From Linderina pennispora (Eukaryota; Kickxellomycota; Kickxellomycetes; Kickxellales; Kickxellaceae), in assembly GCF_002104995.1 (NCBI RefSeq), contig NW_024468276.1, positions 1-64,000 on the forward strand: a stretch of 64,000 nt of DNA, in the 5' to 3' direction. This document shows positions 1 through 34,673 of this stretch, piece by piece. The notes below the pieces were generated by a model. The model searched no databases. It saw nothing but the letters and a program-made list of their open reading frames with translations, and was not told where the DNA came from. Made by a program: the position numbers and the translations under genes. Each line of letters opens with the position of its first letter. Within the stretch, counting starts at the first letter, position 1.

Positions 1-147
1 CCTCCGCCACCATGTGCAGATCCAAATCCCCACCTGTATAAACTTTGTGGGCCGGAACGGCCCCATCCTCCTTTTTCTCCTCCAGCAAATTTTCCATTTT
101 ATTCATTCCATAAAGCTCATAACTACTGGACTCTCTGAAGGTTAACA
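1..147 (+). repeat. 5' LTR, first 25 bases missing
   Basis: Matches the 3' LTR at 4659-4804, ending in GTTAACA at 141-147. Comparison with the 3' copy shows that about 25 bases lie before the window. It has one extra C in a pyrimidine tract near position 83. Confidence 0.93.
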
Positions 148-174
148 TTTTTTTTCCAGTGAAACTATAACCCT

Positions 175-1440: not shown

Positions 1441-4400
1441 TCCAAGTGTCAGCATTTGTGGATACGGGTGCAGATGTCTCGGTGATCTCCCTAGAACTCG
1501 TGGAAGAGCTTCAGGTCCAGGTACAGACTACCATGGCCAAACCGCAGACAGCTAACCCAGGTGAGCTCCTCAAGATTATCGGCCAGGCCCGAAATCTCGC
1601 TCTCCACCAAGTCCCACTCAGTCACGGCAACCCTGCTAGTGGCACCGACCATGGACACCACTGCAATCATACTGGGCTACCCCGAGATTAAGAGTCTGAA
1701 TATCAATATATCGACTCACCAGTATTTCTACCCTGACGATGTGGTATCTAGCCACGACCAGGACGTAGACCAAGAGGTTCCCTGCATCACCTCCGAGATG
1801 TCAGGCGCAGTCCCTGCCACATCTCAAAAGCAGTTTGATGAGTACATTCGTAAGGCACTGCAGGACAATCGTAAGATAGATCCTCGCAAACCCTGTACCC
1901 TCCCTGAGGCATATGTTCACATCGACACCAAGGAACACAAGCCAGTCTTTCGTCGCCAATATCCCATTGCCCAATCGATGCGGGCATCATATGACAAGGT
2001 CATACAGGGGTGGCTTGATGATGGCTCGGTAGTGCCAGTGAGGAAGGCTTCACTGTACAACTCACCAATGTTCCCAGTCCCCAAAAAAGACGCCAACGGC
2101 CACTACACTCTGTGTAGACCATGCATGGACCTTCCGTGCCCTCAACGACACTGTAGACGAAGACAGATACCCACTGCCCATCATCCGGGACATCTTCGCA
2201 GGATTAACAGCTGCCAACTTCTTCACGTCATTAGACCTGAAGTCAGCCTATCTGCGCATGCCAGTTGTTGAACGTGATCAACACAAAACGGCTTTCACCT
2301 GGAGAAACTGCCAGTACATGTTCACACGTGCTCCGTTTGGGTTGAAGACTCTACCGTCGCACTTCCAACGTCTCATCACTACCATCCTATATGACATGCC
2401 CTTCGCACAGGCCTATATTGACGATATCATCATATCCAGCACCACACTGGAGGATCATATGAGACATGTATGCGCGGTTGTTGAACGCCTGAACAAAGCA
2501 GCACTCATATTGAACATTGACAAATGCCATTTCTGCAGAACATCACTCACGCTGTTAGGATTCCAAATCAATGGACACGGTCACACGGTAGACACCAAAC
2601 GACGGGCCCAGATTGCTGATCTTGTAAGACCACAATGTGGCAAACAGGCACAAGCCCTGATGGGCTTCCTCAACTACTTTCGTGAACATGTACCAAACAT
2701 GAGCACATTGACCTCACCGCTAAATCAGCTTGCCCAAATGACGACGATCCGTACAGAAGATTGGACAGAAACTCGTGTTGCAGCCTTCAATGCTGTCAAA
2801 GCCATTTTACTAAACCCACCATTCCTGTACTTCCCTGACTTTTCTAGGCCATTCTTTGTCGCCACTGATGCTTCAGACATAGGGATCGGTGCTGGTCTTT
2901 ACCAGGTCAACCCACGAAATGGGGCCAAACAATACATCTCGTGGCAAGCGCGCACCCTATCAACCTCGGAACGCAACTACTCCGCTACCAAACGTGAGCT
3001 ACTAGCCATAGTATTCGCACTCACACGCTTCTACCCCTACATCTGGGGTCGTCACTTCACGTTATTCTCAGATCATAAGGCGCTCACCTTCCTACACACA
3101 CAGCCACGCCTGTCACCGATGATGATTGGCTGGTATGAGCAGATTTTTGCTCACGACTTCCAAATAGTTCACCGCCCAGGTCTCCGCAATATTCTGCCTG
3201 ACAGCCTCTCACGACTATACCCACCATCTGATACTGGAAGGGGGGGAACCAGTACTAGTCAACCCTTGCAACGCACTACTCTCACCATACGCCGCCTACC
3301 ATTGGCTACCCACAGTTCTGAGGAAGATACGCCAAAGGCACTACGGCAAGAGCTGCTGGCCAAGCAACATGCCATCGGGCACTATGGTGCAGAATCAATG
3401 GTACGCACACTGCGTGATAATGGTTACCAGTGGCCGAAGATGCTAGAGGATGCCAAAGGCATAACTAGCAGGTGCATGCAATGCCTACGATATAACATAT
3501 CTAGGCGTGGATACCACCCCATCACGCCGATACTTGCCAGCACACCCTTCGACCATATCTCAATTGATCTTGCTGGGCCATTCACCACATCTGTCCAGCA
3601 GAACCATTTCCTATTCGTGCTGACTGATATACATTCACGCTTCGTCATCCTCCGACCCTTACCTGACAAAACTGCATCGGCAGTGGCAAAGGTCTTAATC
3701 AAGATCTTCTTTGATTTTGGTTTTCCACGCATCGTACAGAGCGATAACGGACGGGAATTCGTTAATGAGGTCATGACAGCCATGTTGAGAGAATCACATG
3801 TGGATCACCGCCTAATCACGCCCTACCATCCACAGGCAAATGGCACTGCTGAACGGACAGTCCAGACGGCTAAACTAATGATCATGAAGTTGGTCAAAGG
3901 CGTATACCACGACTGGGATCTGTTCATTCCTTTTGCGCAATACTGCATCAACTGTAACATTGTGCGCCGTCACCGCACTGCCCCATTCGCAGTAATGTTT
4001 GGTCGAGCACCCAACACATGGGAGGACCACACTGCTGTCTCAGCTGGCCCCCTCGATGATGAAGTACAGGAAGAACGAAGACGATTCATGGAGGACACGC
4101 TATTCCCGGCTATTGAGCGCGCAACGGTCAAGGTATCAGAGGCCTATCGGTTACAGCACAGTGCTAAGCACAAGACCAATAGCATCCCTATTGACACGTA
4201 CGTCATGACCAGGCAGCATAATCGCTCAAGTAAGCATGATCCAGCGAATCAAGGCCCGTACCTGATCACAGCCATCACGAAAGGTGGCAGCTATGTTCTA
4301 CGAGACATGGAGGGTCAACAGCTTGCACGAAACTATACCAGATCGGAGCTAATACCTATCTCTGACAGACCGATATTCCAAGAAGCTTCCCTCGAAGTCG

Positions 4401-4633
4401 AGAGGATCCTGGGCCACAGACTCAACAAGGCCAGGGAGTATGAGTACCACGTTCGTTGGGCAGACGAAGATGAGAAAGACTCCTGGGAACCATTCAGCAA
4501 CTTCGACAGCACTGACGTCATCCAGAAATACTGGCAGGAACATAACAAAGCACAGAAGGAAACCAAGGAAGCCCGCCAGAAGAGGACGACCCAGCAGAAG
4601 AGACCTTATAAGCTCAGATCTAGGAGGGGGTGA
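1441..4633 (+). pseudogene. pol: pol polyprotein (PR-RT-RH-IN-chromodomain), frameshifted
   Basis: A protease motif FVDTGAD is at about 1450-1475. The frame then shifts near 1600 and again near 2115-2125, inside the start of reverse transcriptase. From about 2120 to 4633 one frame is open. It carries the RT YIDD box (about 2415), RNase H (TDAS region, about 2865), an integrase HHCC zinc domain (about 3368-3485), the integrase DDE catalytic residues (D about 3565, D about 3740, E about 3850) and a C-terminal chromodomain (about 4390-4540). Chromodomain integrases steer insertion towards marked chromatin, which is known for this clade. The frameshifts argue that this copy cannot make a full polyprotein. 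Confidence 0.88.
4622..4630 (+). other. polypurine tract of the retrotransposon
   Basis: AGGAGGGGG lies just before the 3' LTR, separated only by the pol stop codon TGA. A purine run here primes plus-strand DNA synthesis in LTR retrotransposons. Confidence 0.75.
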
Positions 4634-4804
4634 TGTTGACATTCGGGCAACTCTATGCCCTCCGCCACCATGTGCAGATCCAAATCCCCACCTGTATAAA
4701 CTTTGTGGGCCGGAACGGCCCCATCCTCCTTTTTCTCCTCAGCAAATTTTCCATTTTATTCATTCCATAAAGCTCATAACTACTGGACTCTCTGAAGGTT
4801 AACA
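4634..4804 (+). repeat. 3' LTR, 171 bp
   Basis: Begins TGTTGAC right after the pol stop codon and ends GTTAACA. The TG...CA ends and 5-base inverted match (TGTTG/ AACA-type) are typical LTR ends. It contains a TATAAA-like promoter box (CTGTATAAACT) that is also present in the 5' copy. Confidence 0.93.
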
Positions 4805-7061: not shown

Positions 7062-7134
7062 TGGAGGACCTGGGTATCGATCCCAGTGCCTCGCGCATGC
7101 TAAGCGCGCGCTCTCCCATTTGAGCTAGACCCCC
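7062..7134 (-). tRNA. tRNA-Ala (anticodon AGC)
   Basis: Seventy-three bases on the minus strand fold as a tRNA. The acceptor GGGGGTC pairs with GTCCTCC and includes the G3:U70 wobble pair, the classical alanine identity element. The anticodon stem CGCGC/GCGCG closes the loop TTAGCAT with anticodon AGC. The T stem is CTGGG/CCCAG, and the discriminator is A. The internal A box (TAGCTCAAATGG) and B box (GGATCGATACC) are intact. T-runs that can stop RNA polymerase III follow at about 7044-7058. One U:U mismatch lies at acceptor position 6:67. There is no intron. It sits just outside the transposon island. Confidence 0.93.
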
Positions 7135-7519: not shown

Positions 7520-7916
7520 GGAGATCAGTCAGAAATGGTTAGCTATTTAATAATTATTAATATTTTTATTGTTTTCTTGTTCTGATGCCAAATATGGTGC
7601 TTCTACGAAACCCCCTTCGGCATCCTGAAAAATTTCAGTTGATACACAATTAATATGCTTCTACTGAGATACAGGCTGCGTCCCGAGAAATCAACTGAAA
7701 TTTTTCAGGATGCCGAAGGGGGTTTCGTAGAAGCACCATATTTGGCATCTTTGTTTGTTTGTTAATCTAGTTGCTAGAATCTTTTTGGCCATTGCTAAAC
7801 ATTCTGTTTTTTAAAATATTTATCTACTGTTAGTAATTGATTTCTTATTTGTTAATTGGTTATTCTGTTAACAGATATTTAGTTTCTTTAAACTTTTATA
7901 TTTATGAATGGCCTCC
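7520..7916 (+). repeat. left terminal repeat of element A, loop orientation I
   Basis: Starts GGAGATCAGTC and ends ATGGCCTCC; that ATG (7908) opens ORF A. It contains a perfect palindrome at 7584-7749: 60-base arms around a 46-base loop (7644-7689) that begins ACACAATT here. It is the same length as the right repeat. Confidence 0.88.
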
Positions 7917-8741
7917 TTAAGAGTACATCTTAACTCCCTTTTGGGACTTGAGTTGAAGAATAGAGATAATATGCCTGATATATCTGATGCAAGATATACT
8001 AGTAATGGCATTGAACAGCAAGGATTTATTCAGCATTCTGATATCTTTATGGATTCATGTGTTGTTGAGATACCTGAATCATATGCTCTTATAGATCAGA
8101 TTAACAATATTACTCCTTTTGATAGATTGCATAGAGTTTTTGGTGATGGATACAGATTTAAGTATATGAAGTGCATGGTAAGTGTGAGAAATGGTAAAGT
8201 CTCTGTTTACAAAGTATCTGCTCCAAATGTTGCAATAGCTGATCCTGCACTAACTGATATCTTTCTTAGGATGCATCAGGAACATGTATTTCTTCTGAAC
8301 TATGATATTACAATGGATTGTCTAAACATATCTTCTAGGGCTGTGATTAAGGAATTTCTTCTTGATACTGGAATCAGTAGCAATGATATTCTTGATGATG
8401 AAGATAAAGTTGGAGCAAACTGTATTAGCTGGTTTACTGATGAAGATGAAATAAGAATTAGGAACAAGTTGTATCAATAAATTTGTTCAACTTCTAGAAA
8501 GTGGTGAGGTTCGCAATCAACTTACTTCTAAGCTATCAGAGCTAGTGATGCCAACTTCTCAGCAATTTGGTGAAACACTTGTTGCTTGTAGGAATGAAGG
8601 ATTAATGAGGCTTGAGCTTACTGTTCACTCTCCTGAGTTGAAAGAAGTAGAATGGAACACAAACTTAATTGCTAGTACACTGGAGTTTCTTAGTGATTGT
8701 AGGACATTTGCAACATCTTATGAAAAGCAATGGATGGCACT

Positions 8742-9207
8742 GGGGGTTATACAGAGACACTTATCTGCCCATTAAACTATTTATGCATGCTGGAACTATT
8801 AGCAATTTCAGTGAAATAAAAATTTCACCCAAACCGCCATCGGCATCTTGGAAAAAGTTTCAGTGAACATAATTTCCCTTGTGGTTGCTTAGCCACATCT
8901 ATTGAGATATTGACTTTTGTTGGCCCAATGATAATTAACTCCCAAATATGCAAAGTTTTTCTTTCTGGTTGAAATTATGTTCACTGAAACTTTTCCAAGA
9001 TGCCGATGGCGGTTTGGGTGAAATGGCAAAAAAAATATTTGTATTTTTAAAATCAATTATACACACAAAAACATTCTGGACACAATAACAAATAATAACT
9101 ATAGAAAAAATAATTAGTAGCAAAAAATAGTTCTGAAAACGATTATTCAAATATCTATCTAACAAAATTGCAAATAACTAAAATTTACAAGTCCAGGAAT
9201 GACCCCC
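8742..9207 (+). repeat. left terminal repeat of B1, loop orientation II
   Basis: Starts GGGGGTTATACAGAGAC and ends ATGACCCCC; the ATG at 9199 opens ORF A. The palindrome spans 8822-9024. Its loop begins CCTTGTGG on the head side, the reverse of the loop in the right repeat of the same element, while the flanking sequence keeps the same orientation. The left arm has one extra A. Confidence 0.9.
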
Positions 9208-10833
9208 TTCCAGAGTGAACTAAGAGCATTACTATCAAGAGTGTTATCAGAAAGAAGAAATATGCCTGATGTTGCTGATGCTAGGTATACTGCTAGAGGT
9301 ATAGAGCAACTTGGATTTGAGCATTCTTCTGAAATATTTGTTGACTCATTCATTGTTGAGGTTGTTGTTGAGAAATGCAGTGAATCAGATATAAAGGTGA
9401 AGCAGAAGTCAGCTAGTGTTAGATTGCATAAAGTATTTGGAGAAGGTTTTGGTTATAAGTATGTTAGAAGCAAGATTAGTGAAAAATATGGTCCAGTTGC
9501 TATTTACAAAGTATCTACCCCAAATATTGCAATAGCTAGTTCTTTGTTAACAGTGAAGTTTGCTACTATGGCTGATCACAAAATATATCTACAGAATTAT
9601 GACATCACAATGGATTGTATGAATATCTCATCTAGAAATATTATCTATAAATACCTTTTAGAAAGAGGAGTTGAAAAGAAAGATGTTGTAGATGATTTAC
9701 GCAAGTCTGGCTCTAACTGTATTAGCTGGTTTACAAAGAAAGGAGATGTTAAAGTTAAGAACAAAATTTACAATAAGTTTATTCAGCTTATTGAGAGTGG
9801 TGAAGTTCATAATCCTCTTAGTTCAAAACTTTCTGAATTTATAATGCCGACTTTGCACAACTTTGGAGAAACATTGTATGCTTGTAGAAACTCTGGTTTG
9901 ACTAGGATAGAACTAACTGTACATTCTTCTCAGATGCAAACATTTGAATGGAATAGCAGCTTGCTTCTTAACACAGTTCAGTTTATGAATGAATGCAGAA
10001 CATTTGCAACTTCTTATGAAAAGCAGTGGATGGCACTTGTTGATAAAGTTAGTAGTTGTTATACTGTTTGTATTTATGTGAGACAACAGCATACTCTAGT
10101 ATATTGTCATTGGTTTAACTCTATCACATCAAAGAAGCAAGGAATTATTAAGAAGCTAAACAAGAATGATGATCCAATGGTAGTTGTTGCTAATCTCTCA
10201 TTCAACAATAGACCTACACTTTATCAAATATATGATTCACTTGAGAGTGGTCTTGAAACAGAAAAAGTTCTTAGAAGAGTTGATGAGAATATAACTATTG
10301 TTCCAAGTCAGAGAAACTCCTTCTGGTCAACTTATCCTACAACTAAGCAGTATCACACTTTTGAAGAGATGGGATTAGTTAACTACAAAGGAATGCATAT
10401 TGGTTGGATAGATAGTAAGCAAGCAAAGAGTAAGATATGTTTATCAGAAATGTCAGAGGTTGATTATTCTGCAAAAGAGGAAAACATCAATGCATTAACA
10501 ACAGCAATAGACAATATCACACTTGATGAAACTAGACATATATTTATCAAAGAGAATACAGATCTGAAACCTTCCTTGTATACAGTTGCTTACAATGTTC
10601 TTCAGTTAGATGATGAATTTATAGTTACACATTATGCACTCCATACTTTCAGAGGGCATTCATACTTCTATGTTGATATTCATATTAAAGGGAGAGATAA
10701 ACAGCCAACTCTTATTAGGACACCAGCTGACAGTTCTATTGGAAAAGCAATTTCTCAACAGTTAGGAGAATCAAAGCAACAAATATATCTAAGAGTTGTA
10801 AGTGTGGGATATAGAAGAATCACAGTTGAGTAG
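9199..10833 (+). CDS. ORF A of B1, unknown transposon protein (544 residues)
   Basis: Starts with Met-Thr-Pro encoded by the last nine bases of the left terminal repeat. This start is conserved in all three B copies and, as Met-Ala-Ser, in family A. The protein is mixed alpha/beta in character with no signal peptide or membrane segment. A central stretch (about residues 130-260) has the order YDITMDC, then GSNCISWF, a basic VKVKNKIYNKF and TRIELTVH. That order loosely recalls replication-initiator proteins, in which a YDK-like block precedes an RIE strand, but this likeness is weak and not evidence of function. It converges on ORF B. Possible roles are end binding, loop inversion or replication, all inference. 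Confidence 0.75.
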   Translation: MTPFQSELRALLSRVLSERRNMPDVADARYTARGIEQLGFEHSSEIFVDSFIVEVVVEKCSESDIKVKQKSASVRLHKVFGEGFGYKYVRSKISEKYGPVAIYKVSTPNIAIASSLLTVKFATMADHKIYLQNYDITMDCMNISSRNIIYKYLLERGVEKKDVVDDLRKSGSNCISWFTKKGDVKVKNKIYNKFIQLIESGEVHNPLSSKLSEFIMPTLHNFGETLYACRNSGLTRIELTVHSSQMQTFEWNSSLLLNTVQFMNECRTFATSYEKQWMALVDKVSSCYTVCIYVRQQHTLVYCHWFNSITSKKQGIIKKLNKNDDPMVVVANLSFNNRPTLYQIYDSLESGLETEKVLRRVDENITIVPSQRNSFWSTYPTTKQYHTFEEMGLVNYKGMHIGWIDSKQAKSKICLSEMSEVDYSAKEENINALTTAIDNITLDETRHIFIKENTDLKPSLYTVAYNVLQLDDEFIVTHYALHTFRGHSYFYVDIHIKGRDKQPTLIRTPADSSIGKAISQQLGESKQQIYLRVVSVGYRRITVE

Positions 10834-11082
10834 CAGCCATTTTAAAAACATAGTATATGCAACCATTCTCTCCATATCTCTATGGAAAGTTTGACAAACA
10901 TCATACACATGTTCAACCCTTACCTCACAATCAGTAGCAATATGTTGGATCCAATTATGCACTTGTATTGCTAAGTCATCACTCATATCAAAGTCATGAA
11001 TAAGTAGCAGAGTAAGCATATCTCTTTCTTCCTCACACATCTCAGCTAAGTGTTGCTTGAAGAAGTTTTGGAATGATCCCAT
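10789..11082 (-). CDS. ORF B of B1, small antisense protein, C-terminal readthrough
   Basis: Homologous to the 79-residue ORF B of B2 and B3 and to the 84-residue ORF B of family A. Its charged, helix-prone sequence begins MGSFQNFF and includes an AEMCEEERD block. In this copy a run of T has five instead of four bases near 10842-10846. The normal stop after MVAYTMF is lost and 18 extra residues are read, overlapping the 3' end of ORF A. It diverges from ORF C across a gap of only 9-51 bases, which probably holds promoters for both. Unknown function; too small for catalysis in known transposon families, so a DNA-binding or adaptor role is a guess. Confidence 0.65.
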   Translation of the reverse strand: MGSFQNFFKQHLAEMCEEERDMLTLLLIHDFDMSDDLAIQVHNWIQHIATDCEVRVEHVYDVCQTFHRDMERMVAYTMFLKWLLLNCDSSISHTYNS

Positions 11083-11091
11083 TTTCTAAAA

Positions 11092-12363
11092 TTGATAAAA
11101 GTTGAAATTTTTATTTATGACTACCTCACACAGATGGACAATCAATTACAAGAATTAAGAGAGAAGGAGTGGAATGTGCTCTACACAACAAAGTGGAGAT
11201 TTCTTGATGAAGATTGGTTAGTACATAAACAACAGAAGTACTATAGGAGTGAAGCTCATGAAGTGAAAGAAATAAAGCTCATCAAAGATACACTTGTGAA
11301 GCAACTTGGAATGATCCCTGTGTTCTTCTTCCTAAATGTTCTATTTGGTGGAAAGCAGTATCCATGTCCATACAGAAATGTTGAGAAAGGACTCTTGATT
11401 TTATACCAGTTAGTTGCTGGGCTATCAATCAATGAGATGGAGAGGTTTATTCCTAAGAGCAGCTATCAGGTAATTCATAACATGTTCTATCTCTCAGAGT
11501 TAAGTGAGTTGAACAAGAAGCTTTCACACTACTTGCACACAATGTTCTCTACTCCAGAACTAAGAGTGATCTCAGCAAAGATTCAGAATCCAACAAACTT
11601 TAAGCATATAACTCTTATGTTAGATGGACATGACTCACGAGCACTACATAATGGTGCATACAAACCAAATCTTTATTCCTTCAAGTTGAAGAAGTCAGGA
11701 TATAGAACACAAGTTTGTATTGATTTGAATGGAATGGTTGTCCTTGTTTCACCAACTGAGGAGTGTAAAGACCACCCAGATTCTAAGATGATTAAGAACA
11801 TGTCACTATTGAAATACATCTCTCCAGTAGATTGTGTTATTTTAGATGGTGGTTATCCTCAAAGTATTCTGGAGGAGTTAACAGAAGCAGAAGAGAATGA
11901 GAATTTTGGAATGCATAACTTTTGCTTACCAGTTAGAAAGCCAAGAGGAACCAACTTAAGTGAGGCAGAGTTAGAATATAATAGCAAACTTGGGTCATTT
12001 AGATCAATGGTTGAGAGCACATTTGGAGAACTAGGTAACACATTTAAGAGACTATCAAATAGAGAAGTTGTAAGAATTAGAAACACAACTGTGTACAATG
12101 TGCAGTTTAAACTCTGTTGCTTACTCTACAATATGAAGAAGATCCTAGCAGCTAGTAAAGTTCCTATTGAACATCACCACACACTTTGGGTTCTATCTAA
12201 CTTTGACTACCCAAGCAACAACCAGGAGAGATCAACTCATGCTGAAGTTGGAAGTACTTTACCACAAAAAGTAGAACTAGAAGCTTCAATGAGAGAACTA
12301 CAAGATAGACTGATTCAAGCTAAAATTGATGAGTCAATGAACTTCTATGTAGACATGTCATAA
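11092..12363 (+). CDS. ORF C of B1, DDE transposase of the HARBI1/DDE_Tnp_4 type
   Basis: Catalyses cut-and-paste transposition through a DDE nuclease fold (family knowledge). Proposed catalytic residues are D178 (LDGHDS), D252 (LDGGYP) and E308 (VESTFGEL). The usual HARBI1-like landmarks surround them: YSFKLKKSGYRTQ, a VSP...HPDS segment and FGELGNTFKRL. The N-terminal third (about residues 15-140) is likely the DNA-binding part. The conserved start is probably the Met at 11134 (residue 15), since the family A protein begins at the matching MNHQLQEL. The length of 409-423 fits the family. The product presumably acts on the GGGGGT ends in the nucleus. Confidence 0.87.
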   Translation: MIKVEIFIYDYLTQMDNQLQELREKEWNVLYTTKWRFLDEDWLVHKQQKYYRSEAHEVKEIKLIKDTLVKQLGMIPVFFFLNVLFGGKQYPCPYRNVEKGLLILYQLVAGLSINEMERFIPKSSYQVIHNMFYLSELSELNKKLSHYLHTMFSTPELRVISAKIQNPTNFKHITLMLDGHDSRALHNGAYKPNLYSFKLKKSGYRTQVCIDLNGMVVLVSPTEECKDHPDSKMIKNMSLLKYISPVDCVILDGGYPQSILEELTEAEENENFGMHNFCLPVRKPRGTNLSEAELEYNSKLGSFRSMVESTFGELGNTFKRLSNREVVRIRNTTVYNVQFKLCCLLYNMKKILAASKVPIEHHHTLWVLSNFDYPSNNQERSTHAEVGSTLPQKVELEASMRELQDRLIQAKIDESMNFYVDMS

Positions 12364-12424
12364 GCAACTTTTAAAATAGGAATTTTTTACAAACTTTACT
12401 CAATGATAGAAATATCTTCAATAA

Positions 12425-12885
12425 GGGGGTTATACAGAGATACTTATCTGCCCATTAACTATTTATGCATGCTGGAACTATTAGCAATTTCAGTGAAATA
12501 AAAATTTCACCCAAACCGCCATCGGCATCTTGGAAAAGTTTCAGTGAACATAATTTCAACCAGAAAGAAAAACTTTGCATATTTGGGGTTAATTATCATT
12601 GGGCAACAAAAGTCAATATCTCAATAGATGTGGCTAAGCAACCACAAGGAAATTATGTTCACTGAAACTTTTCCAAGATGCCGATGGCGGTTTGGGTGAA
12701 ATGGCAAAAAAAATATTTGTATTTTTAAAATCAATTATACACACAAAAACATTCTGGACACAATAACAAATAATAACTATAGAAAAAATAATTAGTAGCA
12801 AAAAATAGTTCTGAAAACGATTATTCAAATATCTATCTAACAAAATTGCAAATAACTAAAATTTACAAGTCCAGGAATGACCCCC
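12425..12885 (+). repeat. right terminal repeat of B1, loop orientation I
   Basis: Same ends as the left repeat. The palindrome is 12504-12702: 54-base arms (12504-12557 and 12649-12702) and a 91-base loop beginning AACCAGAAAG. Its final ATGACCCCC points out of the element into the flanking ORF A of element A. Confidence 0.9.
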
Positions 12886-13701
12886 ACTAGTTGATCAGAT
12901 TCATAACAAACATACATTGTGTATTTACTTTCATAAAGAATATGCTCTTGCTTATTGCCATTGGTTCAATAGGACAACTAAGAAGAAACAAGGAATAGCT
13001 AAAAAGTTGAAAGAGAATGAAGATATGATGACTGTTGTTTCTAATCTTACATTTAATGGACACCCAACTCTTCTTCTTACATATGCTACCAGTAGTGGTC
13101 CTCTTGAATCTGAAGTTGTTCTGAGAAGAGATATCACAAACATCACTATTGTTCCTAGTCAGAAAAATTCTTTCTGGCCTGTTGTTTCAAGAGAAAGGCA
13201 ACAACACACATTTGCTGAAATGGGACTTGTTAACTATCGTGGAATGCATATTGATTGGTTAACAGCTCAGCAAGCAAGAGAGAAAGTTTGTCTCTCAACT
13301 CTCTCAAGTGTTAGTGAGGATACTGATGACCTAGGAATAGATAATCTTATTGCTGATATTAGCAACATTGAACTTGATGATCTAGAACCCACATATATAA
13401 GAGAAAATACTGATCTTAGGCCAGCTAGATATAAAGTTGCTTATAACATACTTCATGTTGGAGATGAGTTCCTAGTTAGTCATTATTTCTTATATACTTT
13501 TAGAGGGTTGCTATTCTATTATCTAGATATCTATATGATTCACAATGAAGTAGTTAGCAGTACTCACACTCATATCAAAATACAAGCAAGTAGTCCATTT
13601 GGAGAATATATTGCTTCTATTATTGGTGAACCAAGTCAAGAAGTGGTACTTAAAGTAACTAGAATTCATAATCGTATTATCCATACTGAGAGGATCTAGT
13701 T

Positions 13702-15518: not shown

Positions 15519-15915
15519 GGAGATCAGTCAGAAATGGTTAGCTATTTAATAATTATTAATATTTTTATTGTTTTCTTGTTCTGATGCCAAATATGGTGCT
15601 TCTACGAAACCCCCTTCGGCATCCTGAAAAATTTCAGTTGATTTCTCGGGACGCAGCCTGTATCTCAGTAGAAGCATATTAATTGTGTATCAACTGAAAT
15701 TTTTCAGGATGCCGAAGGGGGTTTCGTAGAAGCACCATATTTGGCATCTTTGTTTGTTTGTTAATCTAGTTGCTAGAATCTTTTTGGCCATTGCTAAACA
15801 TTCTGTTTTTTAAAATATTTATCTACTGTTAGTAATTGATTTCTTATTTGTTAATTGGTTATTCTGTTAACAGATATTTAGTTTCTTTAAACTTGTATAT
15901 TTATGAATGGCCTCC
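15519..15915 (+). repeat. right terminal repeat of element A, loop orientation II
   Basis: 397 bp, almost identical to the left repeat outside the loop. The palindrome is 15583-15748, and its 46-base loop begins TTCTCGGGACG, the exact reverse complement of the left-repeat loop, between unchanged arms and flanks. Confidence 0.88.
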
Positions 15916-17603: not shown

Positions 17604-18064
17604 GGGGGTCATTCCTGGACTTGTAAATTTTAGTTATTTGCAATTTTGTTAGATAGATATTTGAATAATCGTTTTCAGAACTATTTTTTGCTACTAATTA
17701 TTTTTTCTATAGTTATTATTTGTTATTGTGTCCAGAATGTTTTTGTGTGTATAATTGATTTTAAAAATACAAATATTTTTTTTGCCATTTCACCCAAACC
17801 GCCATCGGCATCTTGGAAAAGTTTCAGTGAACATAATTTCCTTGTGGTTGCTTAGCCACATCTATTGAGATATTGACTTTTGTTGCCCAATGATAATTAA
17901 CCCCAAATATGCAAAGTTTTTCTTTCTGGTTGAAATTATGTTCACTGAAACTTTTCCAAGATGCCGATGGCGGTTTGGGTGAAATTTTTATTTCACTGAA
18001 ATTGCTAATAGTTCCAGCATGCATAAATAGTTAATGGGCAGATAAGTGTCTCTGTATAACCCCC
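17604..18064 (-). repeat. right terminal repeat of B3, loop orientation I
   Basis: 461 bp, with the palindrome at 17787-17985. It reads GGGGGTTAT at 18064 to ATGACCCCC at 17604 on the minus strand. Confidence 0.9.
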
Positions 18065-18114
18065 TTATTGAAGATATTTCTATCATTAAGTAAAGTTTGT
18101 AAAAAATTCCTATT

Positions 18115-19059
18115 TTAAAAGTTGCTTATGACATGTCTAACATAGAAGTTCATTGACTCATCAATTTTAGCTTGAATCAGTCTATCTTGTAGTTCTCTCA
18201 TTGAAGCTTCTAGTTCTACTTTTTGTGGTAAAGTACTTCCAACTTCAGCATGAGTTGATCTCTCCTGGTTGTTGCTTGGGTAGTCAAAGTTAGATAGAAC
18301 CCAAAGTGTGTGGTGATGTTCAATAGGAACTTTACTAGCTGCTAGGATCTTCTTCATATTGTAGAGTAAGCAACAGAGTTTAAACTGCACATTGTACACA
18401 GTTGTGTTTCTAATTCTTACAACTTCTCTATTTGATAGTCTCTTAAATGTGTTACCTAGTTCTCCAAATGTGCTCTCAACCATTGATCTAAATGACCCAA
18501 GTTTGCTATTATATTCTAACTCTGCCTCACTTAAGTTGGTTCCTCTTGGCTTTCTAACTGGTAAGCAAAAGTTATGCATTCCAAAATTCTCAATCTCTTC
18601 TGCTTCTGTTAACTCCTCCAGAATACTTTGAGGATAACCACCATCTAAAACAACACAATCTACTGGAGAGATGTATTTCAATAGTGACATGTTCTTAATC
18701 ATCTTAGAATCTGGGTAGTCTTTACACTCCTCAGTTGGTGAAACAAGGACAACCATTCCATTCAAATCAATGCAAACTTGTGTTCTATATCCTGACTTCT
18801 TCAACTTGAAGGAATAAAGATTTGGTTTGTATGCACCATTATGTAGTGCTCGTGAGTCATGTCCATCTAACATAAGAGTAATATGCTTAAACCCTTGTGG
18901 ATTCTGAATCTTTGCTGAGATCACTCTTAGTTCTGGAGTAGAGAACATTGTGTGTAAGTAGTGTGAAAGCTTCTTGTTCAACTCACTTAACTCTGAGAGA
19001 TAGAACATATTATGAATTACCTGATAGCTGCTCTTAGGAATAAACCTCTCCATCTCATT
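18115..19059 (-). pseudogene. ORF C of B3, C-terminal two-thirds
   Basis: Continues the transposase from residue EMERFIPKSS and contains all three DDE residues. It is separated from its N-terminal part (23200-23541) by B2. One inserted T near the end replaces the usual DMS terminus with a few extra residues. The outward-facing ATGACCCCC of B2's right repeat (19060-19068) is fused to it in frame, giving an open frame 19068-18115 that starts Met-Thr-Pro. It could still make a truncated transposase. Confidence 0.82.
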
Positions 19060-19521
19060 GGGGGTCATTCCTGGACTTGTAAATTTTAGTAAATTACAAT
19101 TTTGTTAGATAGTTATTTGAATAATCGTTTTCAGAACTATTTTTTGCTACTAGATATTTTTGTAACAGATATTTATAATTGTTGTGTCCAGAATGTTTTT
19201 GTGTGTATAATTGATTTTAAAAATACAAATATTTTTTTTGCCATTTCACCCAAACCGCCATCGGCATCTTGGAAAAGTTTCAGTGAACATAATTTCAACC
19301 AGAAAGAAAAACCTTTGCATATTTGGGGTTAATTATCATTGGGCAACAAAAGTCAATATCTCAATAGATGTGGCTAAGCAACCACAAGGAAATTATGTTC
19401 ACTGAAACTTTTCCAAGATGCCGATGGCGGTTTGGGTGAAATTTTTATTTCACTGAAATTGCCAATAGTTTAAACATGTATAAATAGTTGTTATGCAGAT
19501 AACTAGCTCTGAATGACCTCC
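19060..19521 (-). repeat. right terminal repeat of B2, loop orientation II
   Basis: 462 bp, with the palindrome at 19243-19442. The head sequence is GGAGGTCATTCAGAGC rather than GGGGGTTATACAGAGA, a subtype shared with 22738-23199 and 31463-31921. Confidence 0.9.
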
Positions 19522-19582
19522 TTATTGAAGCATTTTCTATCAATGCAAATTTCTTACTGAGAATTCCTATTTTAAAAGTTAC

Positions 19583-20854
19583 TTATGACATGTCTACATA
19601 GAAGTTCATTGACTCATCAATTTTAGCTTGAATCAGTCTATCTTGTAGTTCTCTCATTGAAGCTTCTAACTCTACTTTTTGTGGTAAAGTACTTCCAACT
19701 TCAGCATGTGTTGATCTCTCCTGGTTGTTGCTAGGGTAGTCAAAGTTAGATAGAACCCAAAGTGTGTGGTGATGTTCAACAGGAACTTTACTAGCTGCTA
19801 GGATCTTCTTCATATTGTAGAGTAAGCAACAGAGTTTAAACTGCACATTGTATACAGTTGTGTTTCTAATTCTCACAACTTCTCTATTTGATAGTCTCTT
19901 AAATGTGTTACCTAGTTCTCCAAATGTGCTCTCAACCATTGATCTAAATGACCCAAGTTTGCTATTATATTCTAACTCTGCTTCACTTAAGTTGGTTCCT
20001 CTTGGCTTTCTAACTGGTAAGCAAAAGTTATGCATTCCAAAATTCTCATTCTCTTCTGCTTCTGTTAACTCTTCCAGAATACTTTGAGGATAACCACCAT
20101 CTAAAACAACACAATCTACTGGAGAGATGTATTTCAATAGTGACATATTCTTAATCATCTTAGAGTCTGGGTGGTCTTTACATTCCTCAGTTGGTGAAAC
20201 AAGGACAACCATTCCATTCAAATCAATGCAAACTTGTGTTCTATATCCTGACTTCTTCAACTTGAAGGAATAAAGATTTGGTTTGTATGCACCATTATGT
20301 AGAGCTCGTGAGTCATGTCCATCTAACATAAGAGTTATATGCTTAAAGTTTGTTGGATTCTGAATCTTTGCTGAGATCACTCTTAGTTCTGGAGTGGAGA
20401 ACATTGTGTGCAAGTAGTGTGAAAGCTTCTTGTTCAACTCACTTAACTCTGAGATATAGAACATATTATGAATTACTTGGTAGCTGCTCTTAGGAATAAA
20501 CCTCTCCATCTCATTGATTGATAGCCCAGCAACTAACTGGTACAAAATCAAGAGTCCTTTCTCAACATTTCTGTAAGGACATGGATACTGCTTTCCACCA
20601 AATAGAACATTTAAGAAGAAGAACACAGGGATCATTCCAAGTTGCTTTACAAGTGTATCTTTGATGAGCTTTATTTCTTTCACTTCATGAGCTTCACTCC
20701 TATAGTACTTCTGTTGTTTATGTACTAACCAGTCTTCATCAAGAAATCTCCACTTTGTTGTGTAGAGCACATTCCACTCCTTCTCTCTTAATTCTTGTAA
20801 TTGATTGTCCATCTGTGTGAGGTAGTCATAAATAAAAATTTCAACTTTTATCAA
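19583..20854 (-). CDS. ORF C of B2, DDE transposase (423 residues), intact
   Basis: Nearly identical to the B1 transposase, with a handful of substitutions. The DDE residues are in LDGHDS, LDGGYP and VESTFGEL. The conserved start is probably the internal Met at residue 15 (20812); the first 14 residues overlap the intergenic promoter region. It is divergent from ORF B, whose start is 10 bases away from the longer ORF. It should cut at the GGAGG/GGGGG ends. Confidence 0.88.
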   Translation of the reverse strand: MIKVEIFIYDYLTQMDNQLQELREKEWNVLYTTKWRFLDEDWLVHKQQKYYRSEAHEVKEIKLIKDTLVKQLGMIPVFFFLNVLFGGKQYPCPYRNVEKGLLILYQLVAGLSINEMERFIPKSSYQVIHNMFYISELSELNKKLSHYLHTMFSTPELRVISAKIQNPTNFKHITLMLDGHDSRALHNGAYKPNLYSFKLKKSGYRTQVCIDLNGMVVLVSPTEECKDHPDSKMIKNMSLLKYISPVDCVVLDGGYPQSILEELTEAEENENFGMHNFCLPVRKPRGTNLSEAELEYNSKLGSFRSMVESTFGELGNTFKRLSNREVVRIRNTTVYNVQFKLCCLLYNMKKILAASKVPVEHHHTLWVLSNFDYPSNNQERSTHAEVGSTLPQKVELEASMRELQDRLIQAKIDESMNFYVDMS

Positions 20855-20863
20855 TTTTAGAAA

Positions 20864-21103
20864 ATGGGATCATTCCAGAACTTCTTCAAGCAACATTTAG
20901 CTGAGATGTGTGAGGAAGAAAGAGATATGCTTACTCTGCTACTTATTCATGACTTTGATATGAGTGATGACTTAGCAATACAAGTGCGTAATTGGATCCA
21001 ACATATTGCTACTGATTGTGAGGTAAGGGTTGAACATGTGTATGATGTTTGTCATACTTTCCATAGAGATATGGAGAGAATGGTTGCTTATACTATGTTT
21101 TAA
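20864..21103 (+). CDS. ORF B of B2 (79 residues)
   Basis: Standard-length version of the small antisense protein with the normal stop after TMF. It ends 8 bases from the ORF A stop (convergent). It is acidic and helix-prone with a single tryptophan-containing helix. Its position between A and C on the opposite strand is the same in every copy. Confidence 0.68.
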   Translation: MGSFQNFFKQHLAEMCEEERDMLTLLLIHDFDMSDDLAIQVRNWIQHIATDCEVRVEHVYDVCHTFHRDMERMVAYTMF

Positions 21104-21111
21104 AATGGCTG

Positions 21112-22746
21112 CTATTCAACTGTGATTGTTCTATATCCCACACTTATAACTCTTAGATATATTTGTTGCTTTCTTTCTCCTAACTGTTGAGAAATTGCTT
21201 TTCCAATAGAACTGTCAACTGGTGTCCTAATAAGAGTTGGCTGTTTATCTCTCCCTTTAATAAGAATATCAACATAGAAGTATGAATGTCCTCTAAAAGT
21301 ATGGAGTGCATAATGTGTAGCTGTAAATTCATCACCTAACTGAAGAACATTGTAAGCAACTCTATACAATGAAGGTTTCAGATCTGTATTCTCTTTGATA
21401 AATATATGGCTAGTTTCATCAAGTGTGATATTGTCTATTGCTGTTGTTAATGCATTGATGTTTTCCTCTTTTGCAGAATATTTATCCTCTGACATTTTTG
21501 ATAGACATATCTTACTCTTTGCTTGCTTACTATCTATCCAACCAATATGCATTCCTTTATAGTTAACTAATCCCATCTCTTCAAAAGTGTGATACTGCTT
21601 AGTTGTAGGATAAGTTGACCAGAAGGAGTTTCTCTGACTTGGAACAATAGTTATATTCTCATCAACTCTTCTAAGAACTTTTTCTGTTTCAAGACCACTC
21701 TCAAGTGAATCATATATTTGATAAAGTGTAGGTCTGTTGTTGAATGAGAGATTAGCAACAACTACCATTGGATCATCATTCTTGTTTAGTTTCTTAATAA
21801 TTCCTTGCTTCTTTGATGTGATAGAGTTAAACCAATGACAATATGCTAGAGTATGCTGTTGTCTCACATAAATGCAAACTGTATAACAACTACTAACTTT
21901 ATCAACAAGTGCTTTCCACTGCTTTTCATAAGAAGTTGCAAATGTTCTGCATTCATTCATAAACTGAACTGTGTTAAGAAGCAAGTTACTATTCCATTCA
22001 ACTGTTTGCATCTGAGAAGAATGTACAGTTAGTTCTATCCTAGTCAAACCAGAGTTTCTGCAAGCATACAATGTTTCTCCAAAGTTGTGCAAAGTTGGCA
22101 TTACAAATTCAGAAAGTTTGGAACTAAGAGGATTACGAACTTCACCACTCTCAAGAAGCTGAATAAACTTGTTATAAATTTTGTTCTTAACTTTAACATC
22201 TCCTTTCTTTGTAAACCAGCTAATACAGTTAGAGCCAGACTTGTGTAAATCATCTACAACATCTTTCTTTTCAACTCCTCTTTCTAAAAGGTATTTATAG
22301 ATAATATTTCTAGATGAGATATTCATACAATCCATTGTGATGTCATAATTCTGTAGAAATATTTTGTGATCAGCCATAGTAGCAAACTTCACTGTTAACA
22401 AAGAACTAGTTATTGCAATGTTTGGGGTAGATACTTTGTAAATAGCAACTGGTCCATATTGCTCACTAATCTTGCTTCTAACATACTTATAACCAAAACC
22501 TTCTCCAAATACTTTATGCAATCTAACACTAGCTGACTTCTGCTTCACCTTTATATCTGATTCACTGCATTTCTCAACAACAACCTCAACAATGAATGAG
22601 TCAACAAATATTTCAGAAGAGTGCTTAAATCCAAGTTGCTCTACACCTCTAGCAGTATACCTAGCATCAGCAACATCAGGCATATTTCTTCTTTCTGACA
22701 ACACTCTTGTTAGTAATGCTCTTAGTTCACTTTGGAAGGGGGTCAT
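21112..22746 (-). CDS. ORF A of B2, unknown transposon protein (544 residues), intact
   Basis: Full length and collinear with the B1 and B3 proteins, with scattered conservative substitutions. It starts at the ATGACCCCC of the left repeat. Cysteines at the YACRNSG and NECRTFA blocks and the SYEKQW motif are invariant among B copies and largely kept in family A. No known domain recognised. Confidence 0.76.
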   Translation of the reverse strand: MTPFQSELRALLTRVLSERRNMPDVADARYTARGVEQLGFKHSSEIFVDSFIVEVVVEKCSESDIKVKQKSASVRLHKVFGEGFGYKYVRSKISEQYGPVAIYKVSTPNIAITSSLLTVKFATMADHKIFLQNYDITMDCMNISSRNIIYKYLLERGVEKKDVVDDLHKSGSNCISWFTKKGDVKVKNKIYNKFIQLLESGEVRNPLSSKLSEFVMPTLHNFGETLYACRNSGLTRIELTVHSSQMQTVEWNSNLLLNTVQFMNECRTFATSYEKQWKALVDKVSSCYTVCIYVRQQHTLAYCHWFNSITSKKQGIIKKLNKNDDPMVVVANLSFNNRPTLYQIYDSLESGLETEKVLRRVDENITIVPSQRNSFWSTYPTTKQYHTFEEMGLVNYKGMHIGWIDSKQAKSKICLSKMSEDKYSAKEENINALTTAIDNITLDETSHIFIKENTDLKPSLYRVAYNVLQLGDEFTATHYALHTFRGHSYFYVDILIKGRDKQPTLIRTPVDSSIGKAISQQLGERKQQIYLRVISVGYRTITVE

Positions 22747-23199
22747 TCCTGGACTTGTAAATTTTAGTAAATTACAATTTTGTTAGATAGTTATTTGAAT
22801 AATCGTTTTCAGAACTATTTTTTGCTACTAGATATTTTTGTAACAGATATTTATAATTGTTGTGTCCAGAATGTTTTTGTGTGTATAATTGATTTTAAAA
22901 ATACAAATATTTTTTTTGCCATTTCACCCAAACCGCCATCGGCATCTTGGAAAAGTTTCAGTGAACATAATTTCAACCAGAAAGAAAAACCTTTGCATAT
23001 TTGGGGTTAATTATCATTGGGCAACAAAAGTCAATATCTCAATAGATGTGGCTAAGCAACCACAAGGAAATTATGTTCACTGAAACTTTTCCAAGATGCC
23101 GATGGCGGTTTGGGTGAAATTTTTATTTCACTGAAATTGCCAATAGTTTAAACATGTATAAATAGTTGTTATGCAGATAACTAGCTCTGAATGACCTCC
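22738..23199 (-). repeat. left terminal repeat of B2, loop orientation II
   Basis: 462 bp, with the palindrome at 22921-23120. Both B2 repeats carry the loop the same way round. It supplies the ORF A start codon at 22746. Confidence 0.9.
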
Positions 23200-23541
23200 A
23201 TTGATTGATAGCCCAGCAACTAACTGGTATAAAATCAAGAGTCCTTTCTCAACATTTCTGTAAGGACATGGATACTGCTTTCCACCAAATAGAACATTTA
23301 GGAAGAAGAACACAGGGATCATTCCAAGTTGCTTCACAAGTGTACCTTTGATGAGCTTTATTTCTTTCACTTCATGAGCTTCACTCCTATAGTACTTCTG
23401 TTGTTTATGTACTAACCAATCTTCATCAAGAAATCTCCACTTTGTTGTGTAGAGCACATTCCACTCCTTCTCTCTTAATTCTTGTAATTGATTGTCCATC
23501 TGTGTGAGGTAGTCATAAATAAAAATTTCAACTTTTATCAA
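23200..23541 (-). pseudogene. ORF C of B3, N-terminal part
   Basis: The first 114 codons up to GLSIN, then interrupted by B2. The open frame runs a further 24 codons into the B2 repeat and stops at 23128. It lacks all catalytic residues. Confidence 0.85.
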
Positions 23542-23550
23542 TTTTAGAAA

Positions 23551-23790
23551 ATGGGATCATTCCAAAACTTCTTCAAGCAACACTTAGCTGAGATGTGTGA
23601 GGAAGAAAGAGATATGCTTACTCTGCTACTTATTCATGACTTTGATATGAGTGATGACTTAGCAATACAAGTGCGTAATTGGATCCAACATATTGCTACT
23701 GATTGTGAGGTAAGGGTTGAACATGTGTATGATGTTTGTCAAACTTTCCATAGAGATATGGAGAGAATGGTTGCATATACTATGTTTTAA
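23551..23790 (+). CDS. ORF B of B3 (79 residues)
   Basis: Differs from the B2 protein by a single residue that I can see (Gln for His near the DVC block). Same convergent 8-base spacing to ORF A and divergent start next to ORF C. Confidence 0.68.
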   Translation: MGSFQNFFKQHLAEMCEEERDMLTLLLIHDFDMSDDLAIQVRNWIQHIATDCEVRVEHVYDVCQTFHRDMERMVAYTMF

Positions 23791-23798
23791 AATGGCTG

Positions 23799-25433
23799 CT
23801 ACTCAACTGTGATTGTTCTATATCCCACACTTACAGCTCTTAGATATATTTGTTGCTTTGATTCTCCTAACTGTTGAGAAATTGCTTTTCCAATAGAACT
23901 GTCAGCTGGTGTCCTAATAAGAGTTGGCTGTTTATCTCTCCCTTTAATATGAATATCAACATAGAAGTATGAATGTCCTCTGAAAGTATGGAGTGCATAA
24001 TGTGTAACTATAAATTCATCATCTAACTGAAGAACATTGTAAGCAACTCTATACAGTGATGGTTTCAGATCTGTATTCTCTTTGATAAATATATGTCTAG
24101 TTTCATCAAGTGTGATATTGTCTATTGCTGTTGTTAATGCATTGATGTTTTCCTCTTTTGCAGAATAATCAACCTCTGATATTTCTGATAAACATATCTT
24201 ACTCTTTGCTTGCTTACTATCTATCCAACCAATATGCATTCCTTTGTAGTTAACTAATCCCATCTCTTCAAAAGTGTGATACTGCTTAGTTGTAGGATAA
24301 GTTGACCAGAAGGAGTTTCTCTGACTTGGAACAATAGTTATATTCTCATCAACTCTTCTAAGAACTTTTTCTGTTTCAAGACCACTCTCAAGTGAATCAT
24401 ATATTTGATAAAGTGTAGGTCTATTGTTGAATGAGAGATTAGCAACAACTACCATTGGATCATCATTCTTGTTTAGCTTCTTAATAATTCCTTGCTTCTT
24501 TGATGTGATAGAGTTAAACCAATGACAATATGCTAGAGTATGCTGTTGTCTCACATAAATACAAACAGTATAACAACTACTAACTTTATCAACAAGTGCC
24601 ATCCACTGCTTTTCATAAGAAGTTGCAAATGTTCTGCATTTATTCATAAACTGAACTGTGTTAAGAAGCAAGCTGCTATTCCATTCAAATGTTTGCATCT
24701 GAGAAGAATGTACAGTTAGTTCTATCCTAGTCAAACCAGAGTTTCTACAAGCATACAATGTTTCTCCAAAGTTGTGCAAAGTTGGCATTATAAATTCAGA
24801 AAGTTTTGAACTAAGAGGATTACGAACTTCACCACTCTCAAGAAGCTGAATAAACTTGTTGTAAATTTTGTTCTTAACTTTAACATCTCCTTTCTTTGTA
24901 AACCAGCTAATGCAGTTAGAGCCAGACTTGCGTAAATCATCTACAACATCTTTCTTTTCAACTCCTCTTTCTAAAAGGTATTTATAGATAATATTTCTAG
25001 ATGAGATATTCATACAATCCATTGTGATGTCATAATTTTGTAGATATATTTTGTAATCAGCCATAGCAGCAAACTTCACTGTTAACAAAGAACTAGCTAT
25101 TGCAATATTTGGGGTAGATACTTTGTAAATAGCAACTGGACCATATTTTTCACTAATCTTACTTCTAACATACTTATAACCAAAACCTTCTCCAAATACT
25201 TTATGCAATCTAACACTAGCTGACTTCTGCTTCACCTTTATATCTGATTCACTGCATTTCTCAACAACAACCTCAACAATGAATGAGTCAACAAATATTT
25301 CAGAAGAATGCTCAAATCCAAGTTGCTCTATACCTCTAGCAGTATACCTAGCATCAGCGACATCAGGCATATTTCTTCTTTCTGATAACACTCTTGATAG
25401 TAATGCTCTTAGTTCACTCTGGAAGGGGGTCAT
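23799..25433 (-). CDS. ORF A of B3, unknown transposon protein (544 residues)
   Basis: Intact. Very close to the B1 protein and slightly more distant from B2. It begins at the ATGACCCCC of the left terminal repeat. With ORF C split, B3 could move only if transposase is supplied by B1, B2 or the in-frame fusion at 18115-19068. Confidence 0.76.
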   Translation of the reverse strand: MTPFQSELRALLSRVLSERRNMPDVADARYTARGIEQLGFEHSSEIFVDSFIVEVVVEKCSESDIKVKQKSASVRLHKVFGEGFGYKYVRSKISEKYGPVAIYKVSTPNIAIASSLLTVKFAAMADYKIYLQNYDITMDCMNISSRNIIYKYLLERGVEKKDVVDDLRKSGSNCISWFTKKGDVKVKNKIYNKFIQLLESGEVRNPLSSKLSEFIMPTLHNFGETLYACRNSGLTRIELTVHSSQMQTFEWNSSLLLNTVQFMNKCRTFATSYEKQWMALVDKVSSCYTVCIYVRQQHTLAYCHWFNSITSKKQGIIKKLNKNDDPMVVVANLSFNNRPTLYQIYDSLESGLETEKVLRRVDENITIVPSQRNSFWSTYPTTKQYHTFEEMGLVNYKGMHIGWIDSKQAKSKICLSEISEVDYSAKEENINALTTAIDNITLDETRHIFIKENTDLKPSLYRVAYNVLQLDDEFIVTHYALHTFRGHSYFYVDIHIKGRDKQPTLIRTPADSSIGKAISQQLGESKQQIYLRAVSVGYRTITVE

Positions 25434-25885
25434 TCCTGGACTTGTAAATTTTAGTTATTTGCAATTTTGTTAGATAGATATTTGAATAATCGTTTTCAGA
25501 ACTATTTTTTGCTACTAATTATTTTTTCTATAGTTATTATTTGTTATTGTGTCCAGAATGTTTTTGTGTGTATAATTGATTTTAAAAATACAAATATTTT
25601 TTTTGCCATTTCACCCAAACCGCCATCGGCATCTTGGAAAAGTTTCAGTGAACATAATTTCCTTGTGGTTGCTTAGCCACATCTATTGAGATATTGACTT
25701 TTGTTGCCCAATGATAATTAACCCCAAATATGCAAAGTTTTTCTTTCTGGTTGAAATTATGTTCACTGAAACTTTTCCAAGATGCCGATGGCGGTTTGGG
25801 TGAAATTTTTATTTCACTGAAATTGCTAATAGTTCCAGCATGCATAAATAGTTAATGGGCAGATAAGTGTCTCTGTATAACCCCC
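25425..25885 (-). repeat. left terminal repeat of B3, loop orientation I
   Basis: 461 bp, with the palindrome at 25608-25806. Head GGGGGTTAT at 25885. Provides the start codon of ORF A at 25433. Confidence 0.9.
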
Positions 25886-30967: not shown

Positions 30968-31990
30968 AACTGGGCAGCAAAAATTGAGTCACAAAAATAT
31001 AAATCATCGAAAATCTTAAATAATTGCTCAGAACATTGTTCATTGAATACGATAAAATTAATTCGTGGTGTATGCTATGCACTATTCTATTTCATGATGT
31101 TGTATGGTTATTGCTCTTGAAATAAATGAGAAATTACAATTTTAAAAATTAAAAATTTTTGACTCAATTTTGCTCTCAAAAATTCGTCGATTTATTTCTC
31201 AACATCTAGTATAGACACCATAGGCTTTTATGACTGCAGTGATACACCCAGGCATCGAGTTCACTAGCTATATACAAACAGTTTCATTTATTTACCTATT
31301 TATAATTCCTAGGCCAATGCCATGTAGGTGCCAAAAACGATGACTTCTGGTCTTTATCAGATCATACTCATAATGAAGCCCTATATGTGAGTAGAGCATG
31401 TATCTAGAGGATGCCACTGCTCATCATCCAATAGAAACAATATACATATCTAGCTAACTTATGGGGGTCATTCTTGGACTTGTAAATTATAGTAAATTCC
31501 AATTTTGTTAGTTAGATATTTGATTAATCGTTCTCAGAGCAGATTTTTACTACTAGTTATTTTTATCATAGTTAATATTACTTATTATGTCCAGAATGTT
31601 TTCGTGTGTATATTTGATTTTAAAAATACAAATATTTTTTGCCATTTCACCCAAACCGCCATCGGCATCTTGGAAATGTTTCAGTGAACATAATTTCAAC
31701 CAGAAAAAAAAGCTTTGCATATTTGGGGTTAATTATCATTGGGCAACAAAAGTCCATATCTCAATAGATGTGGCTAAGCAACCACAAGGAAATTATGTTC
31801 ACTGAAACTTTTCCAAGATGCCGATGGCAGTTTGGGTAAAATTTTTATTTCACTGAAATTGCCAATAGTTTGAACATGTACAAATAATTGTTGTGCAGAT
31901 AACTAACTCTGAATGACCTCCTGTAGCCCAAATTGCCATTTATATGATAATGACTTCTTTAGACATAATCTTTGCACCCTCCTACTGGTT
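30968..31990 (-). repeat. Tc1-like deletion derivative with inserted B-type repeat
   Basis: Reverse-complement relative of 16733-17288, with a terminal-repeat-like end at 30968 next to TA. It is interrupted by the solo B repeat at 31463-31921 and continues to about 31990. Confidence 0.6.
31463..31921 (-). repeat. solo B-type terminal repeat, loop orientation II
   Basis: 459 bp with both ends (GGAGGTCATTCAGAG at 31921, ATGACCCCC at 31463) and the palindrome at 31644-31842, with no internal genes. The interrupted Tc1-like sequence suggests a 3-bp duplication TGT (right 31922-31924, left changed to TAT at 31460-31462). It resembles a solo LTR in form. Confidence 0.8.
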
Positions 31991-32004
31991 ATCATAGGTA
32001 TGTA

Positions 32005-34592: not shown

Positions 34593-34673
34593 TAACATTT
34601 CTACACGAGTGCATAGTTCGTGATACGGCGTTGATAGCTTTGAATTTATAAAAACAACTAAAGTGTTTACAAT

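Follow-up and report, generated by a model that had tools for sequence, protein, structure and literature searches.

Layout and classification of the B1 element

The 64,000-nucleotide stretch of Linderina pennispora DNA analysed here (contig NW_024468276.1, positions 1 to 64,000; hereafter the window) carries at 8742-12885 an insertion, B1, in which two genes lie between two copies of a long terminal repeat, R, both in direct orientation. Its outermost ends are bordered on both sides by ACT, a 3-bp target-site duplication (8739..8741 and 12886..12888). The left R occupies 8742..9207 and the right R 12425..12885, both on the plus strand. Each R (~461 bp) consists, in order, of a 79-bp left flank, a 54-bp palindrome arm, a 91-bp loop, the second arm and a 183-bp right flank; in B1 it begins with GGGGGTTATA and finishes with TGACCCCC, and a second R subtype begins with GGAGGTCA. 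The right R has its 54-bp arms at 12504..12557 (plus strand) and 12649..12702 (minus strand) around the 91-bp loop at 12558..12648 (plus strand). The corresponding parts of the left R are a 55-bp left arm with one extra A (8822..8876, plus strand), a loop (8877..8970, plus strand) and a right arm (8971..9024, minus strand). Folded as a single strand, R reaches -85.7 kcal/mol, compared with -36.3 (standard deviation 4.4) for 100 shuffles, which, together with the complete lack of matches for reversed-pattern controls in the genome search described below, argues that the palindrome did not arise by chance.

The two R of B1 carry their loops reversed relative to each other, the left in orientation II and the right in orientation I. 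A sequence-only reading of this DNA had drawn attention to this opposition, and was correct in doing so, as it was in locating seven R repeats in the window with the loop in orientation I in three (12425, 17604 and 25425) and orientation II in four (8742, 19060, 22738 and 31463). It had also described the arms and flanks of the two B1 repeats as identical, which they are not: the left R is 466 bp long and the right R 461 bp, the left having five single-base insertions and one substitution in its left flank, differences that may be residual read errors.

Between the repeats are a 544-amino-acid open reading frame (9199..10833, plus strand), whose ATG falls within the end of the left R and whose product has a residue pattern resembling that of Rep_trans rolling-circle replication initiators, and a 423-amino-acid open reading frame (11092..12363, plus strand) encoding a DDE_Tnp_4 transposase (Pfam PF13359, E 1.4e-13, over the cut-off; DDE_Tnp_1 was also matched). 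Neither a Myb/SANT domain nor any other Pfam domain was matched in the 544-amino-acid frame.

The B family is a composite-like DDE transposon with an R-genes-R structure, 3-bp target duplications, solo R copies and tandem units. R itself is a long terminal direct repeat with short inverted tips of its own, found alone and in multimers as well as at element ends. The 3-bp duplication matches in 16 of 25 R-R pairings, some of which are false and span nested elements. Matching 3-bp flanks also surround 21 of the 30 R copies that have no unit on either side, although one of the 21 (C24:727781) is a unit border that was misread. Two R are located between two units. Within an element the two R differ by 1.3% on average, compared with ~7.5% between elements (16 elements; the exceptions are two whose own R are 7.6 and 9.5% apart). 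Because R copies are so much closer within an element than between elements, a single R may be the source of both ends, or recombination may keep the ends alike.

Judging from sequence features, the family probably belongs to PIF/Harbinger. It shares with these elements (PHIS) the DDE_Tnp_4 transposase, 3-bp target duplications and a two-gene layout, but differs in its long direct terminal repeats, in the hairpin within each of them and in a second protein without a Myb/SANT match; according to the accessible part of PMC12730594, some related families also lack a Myb/SANT second protein. In overall architecture the closest parallel is KolobokP of animals (Kojima and Bao 2022, PMC9587614, accessible sections), which has 3-5 bp target duplications, solo repeats and (repeat-internal)n-repeat multimers, and encodes a transposase together with a second protein that is a DNA-cutting enzyme, as the second B protein may be. 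However, KolobokP uses a Kolobok transposase rather than DDE_Tnp_4 and a His-Me homing endonuclease rather than a 544-amino-acid Rep_trans-like protein, and its host is an animal rather than a fungus. No His-Me finger endonuclease was matched by Pfam in the second B open reading frame and the words hairpin and inversion are absent from the text of the KolobokP description. Our search of titles and abstract openings in mostly freely accessible literature, with Repbase outside its scope, yielded no earlier description of the B element.

Loop orientation and exchange at the palindrome

The genome (26.17 Mb in 222 contigs) was searched with two 75-base patterns, each running from the left flank through the arm into the loop in one of its orientations, with up to three mismatches and no insertions or deletions allowed; copies bearing such changes, for example that at 8742, are missed. 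The two orientations were found at 60 and 54 places and the reversed-pattern controls at none. Six palindromes with left flanks on both sides are common to the two lists, leaving 54 versus 48 of 102 (binomial p 0.62); exact matches number 37 and 38. Copies were also fetched for direct comparison, in 20 stretches of up to 10 kb and 37 of ~0.6 kb. Together with the window these contain 90 palindromes, of which 87 have a left and a right flank, two have right flanks on both sides (Rt-Rt) and one has left flanks on both sides (Lf-Lf). Orientation among the 87 is split 44 to 43, a balance that is partly built in, as the copies were taken from the top 40 matches for each of two queries, one per orientation, which makes the pattern count the better measure. 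Where the 3-bp flanks of an R-R pairing match, the two loops are alike in 10 and unlike in 6 (p 0.45 against even odds); the other nine pairings, some of them false and running across nested elements, have six like and three unlike. Loop orientation is about 1:1, is independent of the rest of the sequence and can differ between the two ends of one element.

Orientation also differs among copies that are otherwise the same. Once loops are turned alike, 20 of 86 copies (one of the 87 could not be divided into its parts) are letter-identical and divide 8 to 12 between the two orientations, while another 8 that are identical among themselves divide 4 to 4. Three whole elements (C144:19060, C35:14 and C112:392039) have zero differences over 4,140 bp outside their loops, which are -/-, +/+ and +/-. 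Because entire elements and copies that are identical outside the loops differ in orientation, the loop changes orientation much faster than bases are substituted. The loop is thus a two-state marker that changes while the remaining 4 kb stays identical, recording a DNA-processing step that is invisible to substitutions.

Such a pattern could in principle come from an assembler that places palindromes in the wrong orientation. The five extra single bases in the left R of B1 do resemble residual long-read errors, and repeats of this kind are hard to polish. Against this, the orientations are about even across the 102 copies, and the same holds for both families and for copies whose arms have several mismatches (6 and 6 where there are at least three; copies with one or two have 11 and 4), which leads us to judge an artefact unlikely, indeed the least probable of the explanations considered. 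The arms are perfect in 59 of the 86 copies. Separately, arm mismatches in the B palindromes are common at the arm's two CpG sites, as decay of methylcytosine would predict.

The palindrome is also a point of exchange between copies. The flank types on its two sides reassort and are sometimes duplicated (Lf-Lf and Rt-Rt), and pairs of variable sites fail the four-gamete test far more often across the palindrome (144 of 224 pairs) than within the left flank (24 of 91) or the right flank (42 of 120). Diversity per site is 0.013-0.025 in the arms and loop and 0.09-0.11 in the flanks, a gap of about four- to eightfold. These values come from 82, 85, 44, 86 and 67 of the 86 copies for left flank, arm, loop, second arm and right flank, copies of unusual length having been dropped for each part; the 44 loops omit a common 92-bp subtype, which means that loop diversity is understated. 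The low diversity of the palindrome fits either homogenisation or constraint.

A dedicated site-specific invertase that recognises the arms and flips the loop would account for the near 1:1 balance and for the way arms and loop are conserved. In neither of the two B1 open reading frames was a domain of a site-specific recombinase recognised, and we consider such an enzyme very improbable. The sequence-only reading had likened the flip-flop state to site-specific inversion systems, and the state itself is real and close to 1:1. There are, however, other known cases in which the loop of a hairpin is inverted by template switching or by recombination between its arms, so flipping alone needs no dedicated inversion system.

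Flipping extends to a second family, A, whose protein is ~51% identical to the B protein and whose ~397-bp repeat has 44-bp arms and a 46-bp loop. The examined stretches contain 36 A cores. In 32 of them the usual right flank lies opposite another flank, with orientations of 19 versus 13; the remaining four comprise one each with the right flank, the left flank and a third flank type on both sides, and one without a recognised right flank. A solo B repeat elsewhere in the genome (L030, C146:1592489) lies in A-family-like sequence and has ACT/ACT flanks, as B1 does, with a different right flank type; either one target was picked twice or the two descend from a common older insertion.

Candidate mechanisms of flipping

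Because both orientations are about equally common even among copies that are otherwise identical to the letter, the data point to very frequent flipping, and its agent is perhaps a replication enzyme of a kind so far known from bacteria and archaea. Our leading explanation, which we hold tentatively, is that the palindrome serves in hairpin form as an origin or recombination site, that flipping is its footprint and that the element's own protein drives the exchange. R would be processed as a single strand, in hairpin form, while the element replicates or transposes, possibly through a ~3,678-bp circle made up of the genes and a single R. Nicking, strand exchange or fold-back joining at the hairpin would restore the loop either way with equal odds. 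Less certainly, the 544-amino-acid protein would be a putative Rep_trans-like nickase that cuts at the R hairpin and drives the exchange, and the DDE_Tnp_4 protein would insert the element at its G-rich tips.

The case for a nickase comes mainly from residues. A protein search returned six relatives of the 544-amino-acid protein, three of them from Linderina pennispora, one of which is 92% identical to it. Across the seven sequences most of the Rep_trans active-site pattern, namely a catalytic tyrosine, a lysine two residues on, three acidic metal ligands and R-x-E, is invariant when compared with the residues named in the accessible part of PMC4797284. In the B1 protein it comprises D49, D135/T137/D139, K189/Y191/K193/Q196 and R236/E238, where D49 would be the first metal ligand. 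Proteins of the Rep_trans type recognise palindromic DNA and make their nick at a hairpin close by, according to the accessible parts of PMC4797284 and PMC13107129. In the B protein the catalytic tyrosine, lysine and acidic residues come in the same order as in Rep_trans (PF02486) and archaeal Rep-Arvir, and the protein may have a related fold, to which a low-confidence predicted model bears a weak similarity; the full-length model (mean predicted local distance difference test score, pLDDT, of 44) was too poor for use. Unlike them, it resides in a eukaryote and is the partner of a DDE transposase.

Several results weigh against this assignment. Some residues conserved in Rep_trans are missing: counting from D135 or Y191, R140 is replaced by N or S, and T176, Y178 and G180 are replaced by S, F/L/V and K/D. 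The PF02486 profile matched nothing in the genome and none of the seven family members. Comparison of a profile of the family with bacterial Rep_trans proteins was also non-significant (24 genomes gave 0 such proteins; 193 gave 11 matches in 9 genomes). Searches for relatives in viral_contigs and genome_contigs, where patterns matched 282 and 176 stretches, confirmed none. Two protein hits, P0004, a relative of the 544-amino-acid protein, and P0056, a DDE_Tnp_4 relative, are both listed with a longest contig of 3,700 bases and may adjoin.

A serious rival, which we regard as almost as likely as the origin or recombination-site explanation, needs no enzyme from the element at all. The host would invert the loop by inter-strand template switching or by recombination between the near-perfect 44-54-bp arms, and the element would supply only the palindrome. 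Both A and B flip despite their differing loops, which speaks for this rival, as does the prevalence of perfect arms noted above. There are also precedents in which a loop between inverted repeats occurs in both orientations: in the accessible sections of PMC12928735, small chloroplast inversions of 5-50 bp between 11-24-bp inverted repeats have flip-flop orientations, and in those of PMC8794818, template switching inverts loops and leaves stems perfect. However, the loops in these cases are shorter than that of B and lie outside transposon ends, and according to PMC8794818 it is very rare for a loop to be inverted completely, although the genes in question encode RNAs and selection acts on their loops. 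B orientation, by contrast, is random among copies without a substitution. A search of the window and 20 larger stretches for unrelated palindromes to serve as controls produced none: of four candidates, three were the ends of a different transposon and the fourth was a core of the A family.

In parvoviruses and poxviruses, flip and flop forms of the end hairpins are about equally frequent. The sequence-only reading had likened the loop to that of hairpin-ended replicons, and the comparison with a replicon that handles hairpins is reasonable because the partner protein has a residue pattern like that of rolling-circle initiators. The stricter form of the idea posits a linear stage that has the R hairpin as its end, with the loop flipping in each round of copying and R-genes-R arrays as concatemers. 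In its favour are the 1:1 orientation, the Lf-Lf and Rt-Rt junctions and the presence of an R common to tandem units, all of them expected where hairpin ends are joined. However, the hairpin of those viruses is a physical genome end, whereas in B the palindrome lies inside each repeat and the insertions end at G-rich outer R tips with 3-bp duplications. Lf-Lf palindromes are also rare (six versus 102 by pattern), as are Rt-Rt (2 of 90), and neither a telomere resolvase nor a known hairpin-type Rep was recognised. A literal parvovirus-like linear genome was rejected on the ground that insertions end at R tips with 3-bp duplications, and we consider a replicon of this general type improbable.

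The hairpin-origin explanation can be extended to a full cycle, in which a DDE transposase and a Rep_trans-like initiator would act in one eukaryotic element, the palindrome would be the origin, a circle of R and the genes would be released by two direct-repeat origins, copied and reinserted, and each cycle would give the loop an even chance of flipping. We regard this fuller version as rather unlikely. If the 544-amino-acid protein does prove to be a nickase of the Rep_trans type, these replication enzymes, so far described in bacteria and lately in archaea, would gain a eukaryotic branch, and the composite-like transposon architecture of animals would gain a fungal counterpart with a different nuclease.

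Other elements and genes in the window

A second B element (17604..25885, minus strand), with the duplication ATT and both loops in orientation I, hosts a third one nested within it (19060..23199, minus strand; 4,140 bp, duplication AAT, both loops in orientation II), which is identical to a copy on contig C1. A solo R in orientation II lies on the minus strand at 31463..31921, with unmatched flanks. A-family repeats, each a palindrome core with a right part, lie on the plus strand at 7600..7916 (core orientation +) and 15599..15915 (core orientation -); these two cores, opposite in orientation, are taken to be the ends of an A element interrupted by B1.

A different transposon family with ~31-bp inverted ends, frequently found next to or within A and B repeats, is represented at 32003-34594. 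At the start of the window (1-4757) is a Ty3/gypsy-type retrotransposon with 99-bp repeats (1-99 and 4659-4757), gag-like and pol open reading frames and a chromodomain, and a tRNA-Ala gene (7062-7134) lies near the transposon cluster. Further on are a 1355-amino-acid open reading frame for a P-type ATPase (E1-E2_ATPase; 34674-38741) and one of 1275 amino acids (40549-44376) matching the telomere-maintenance protein CTC1 (PF15489, E 1.2e-8).

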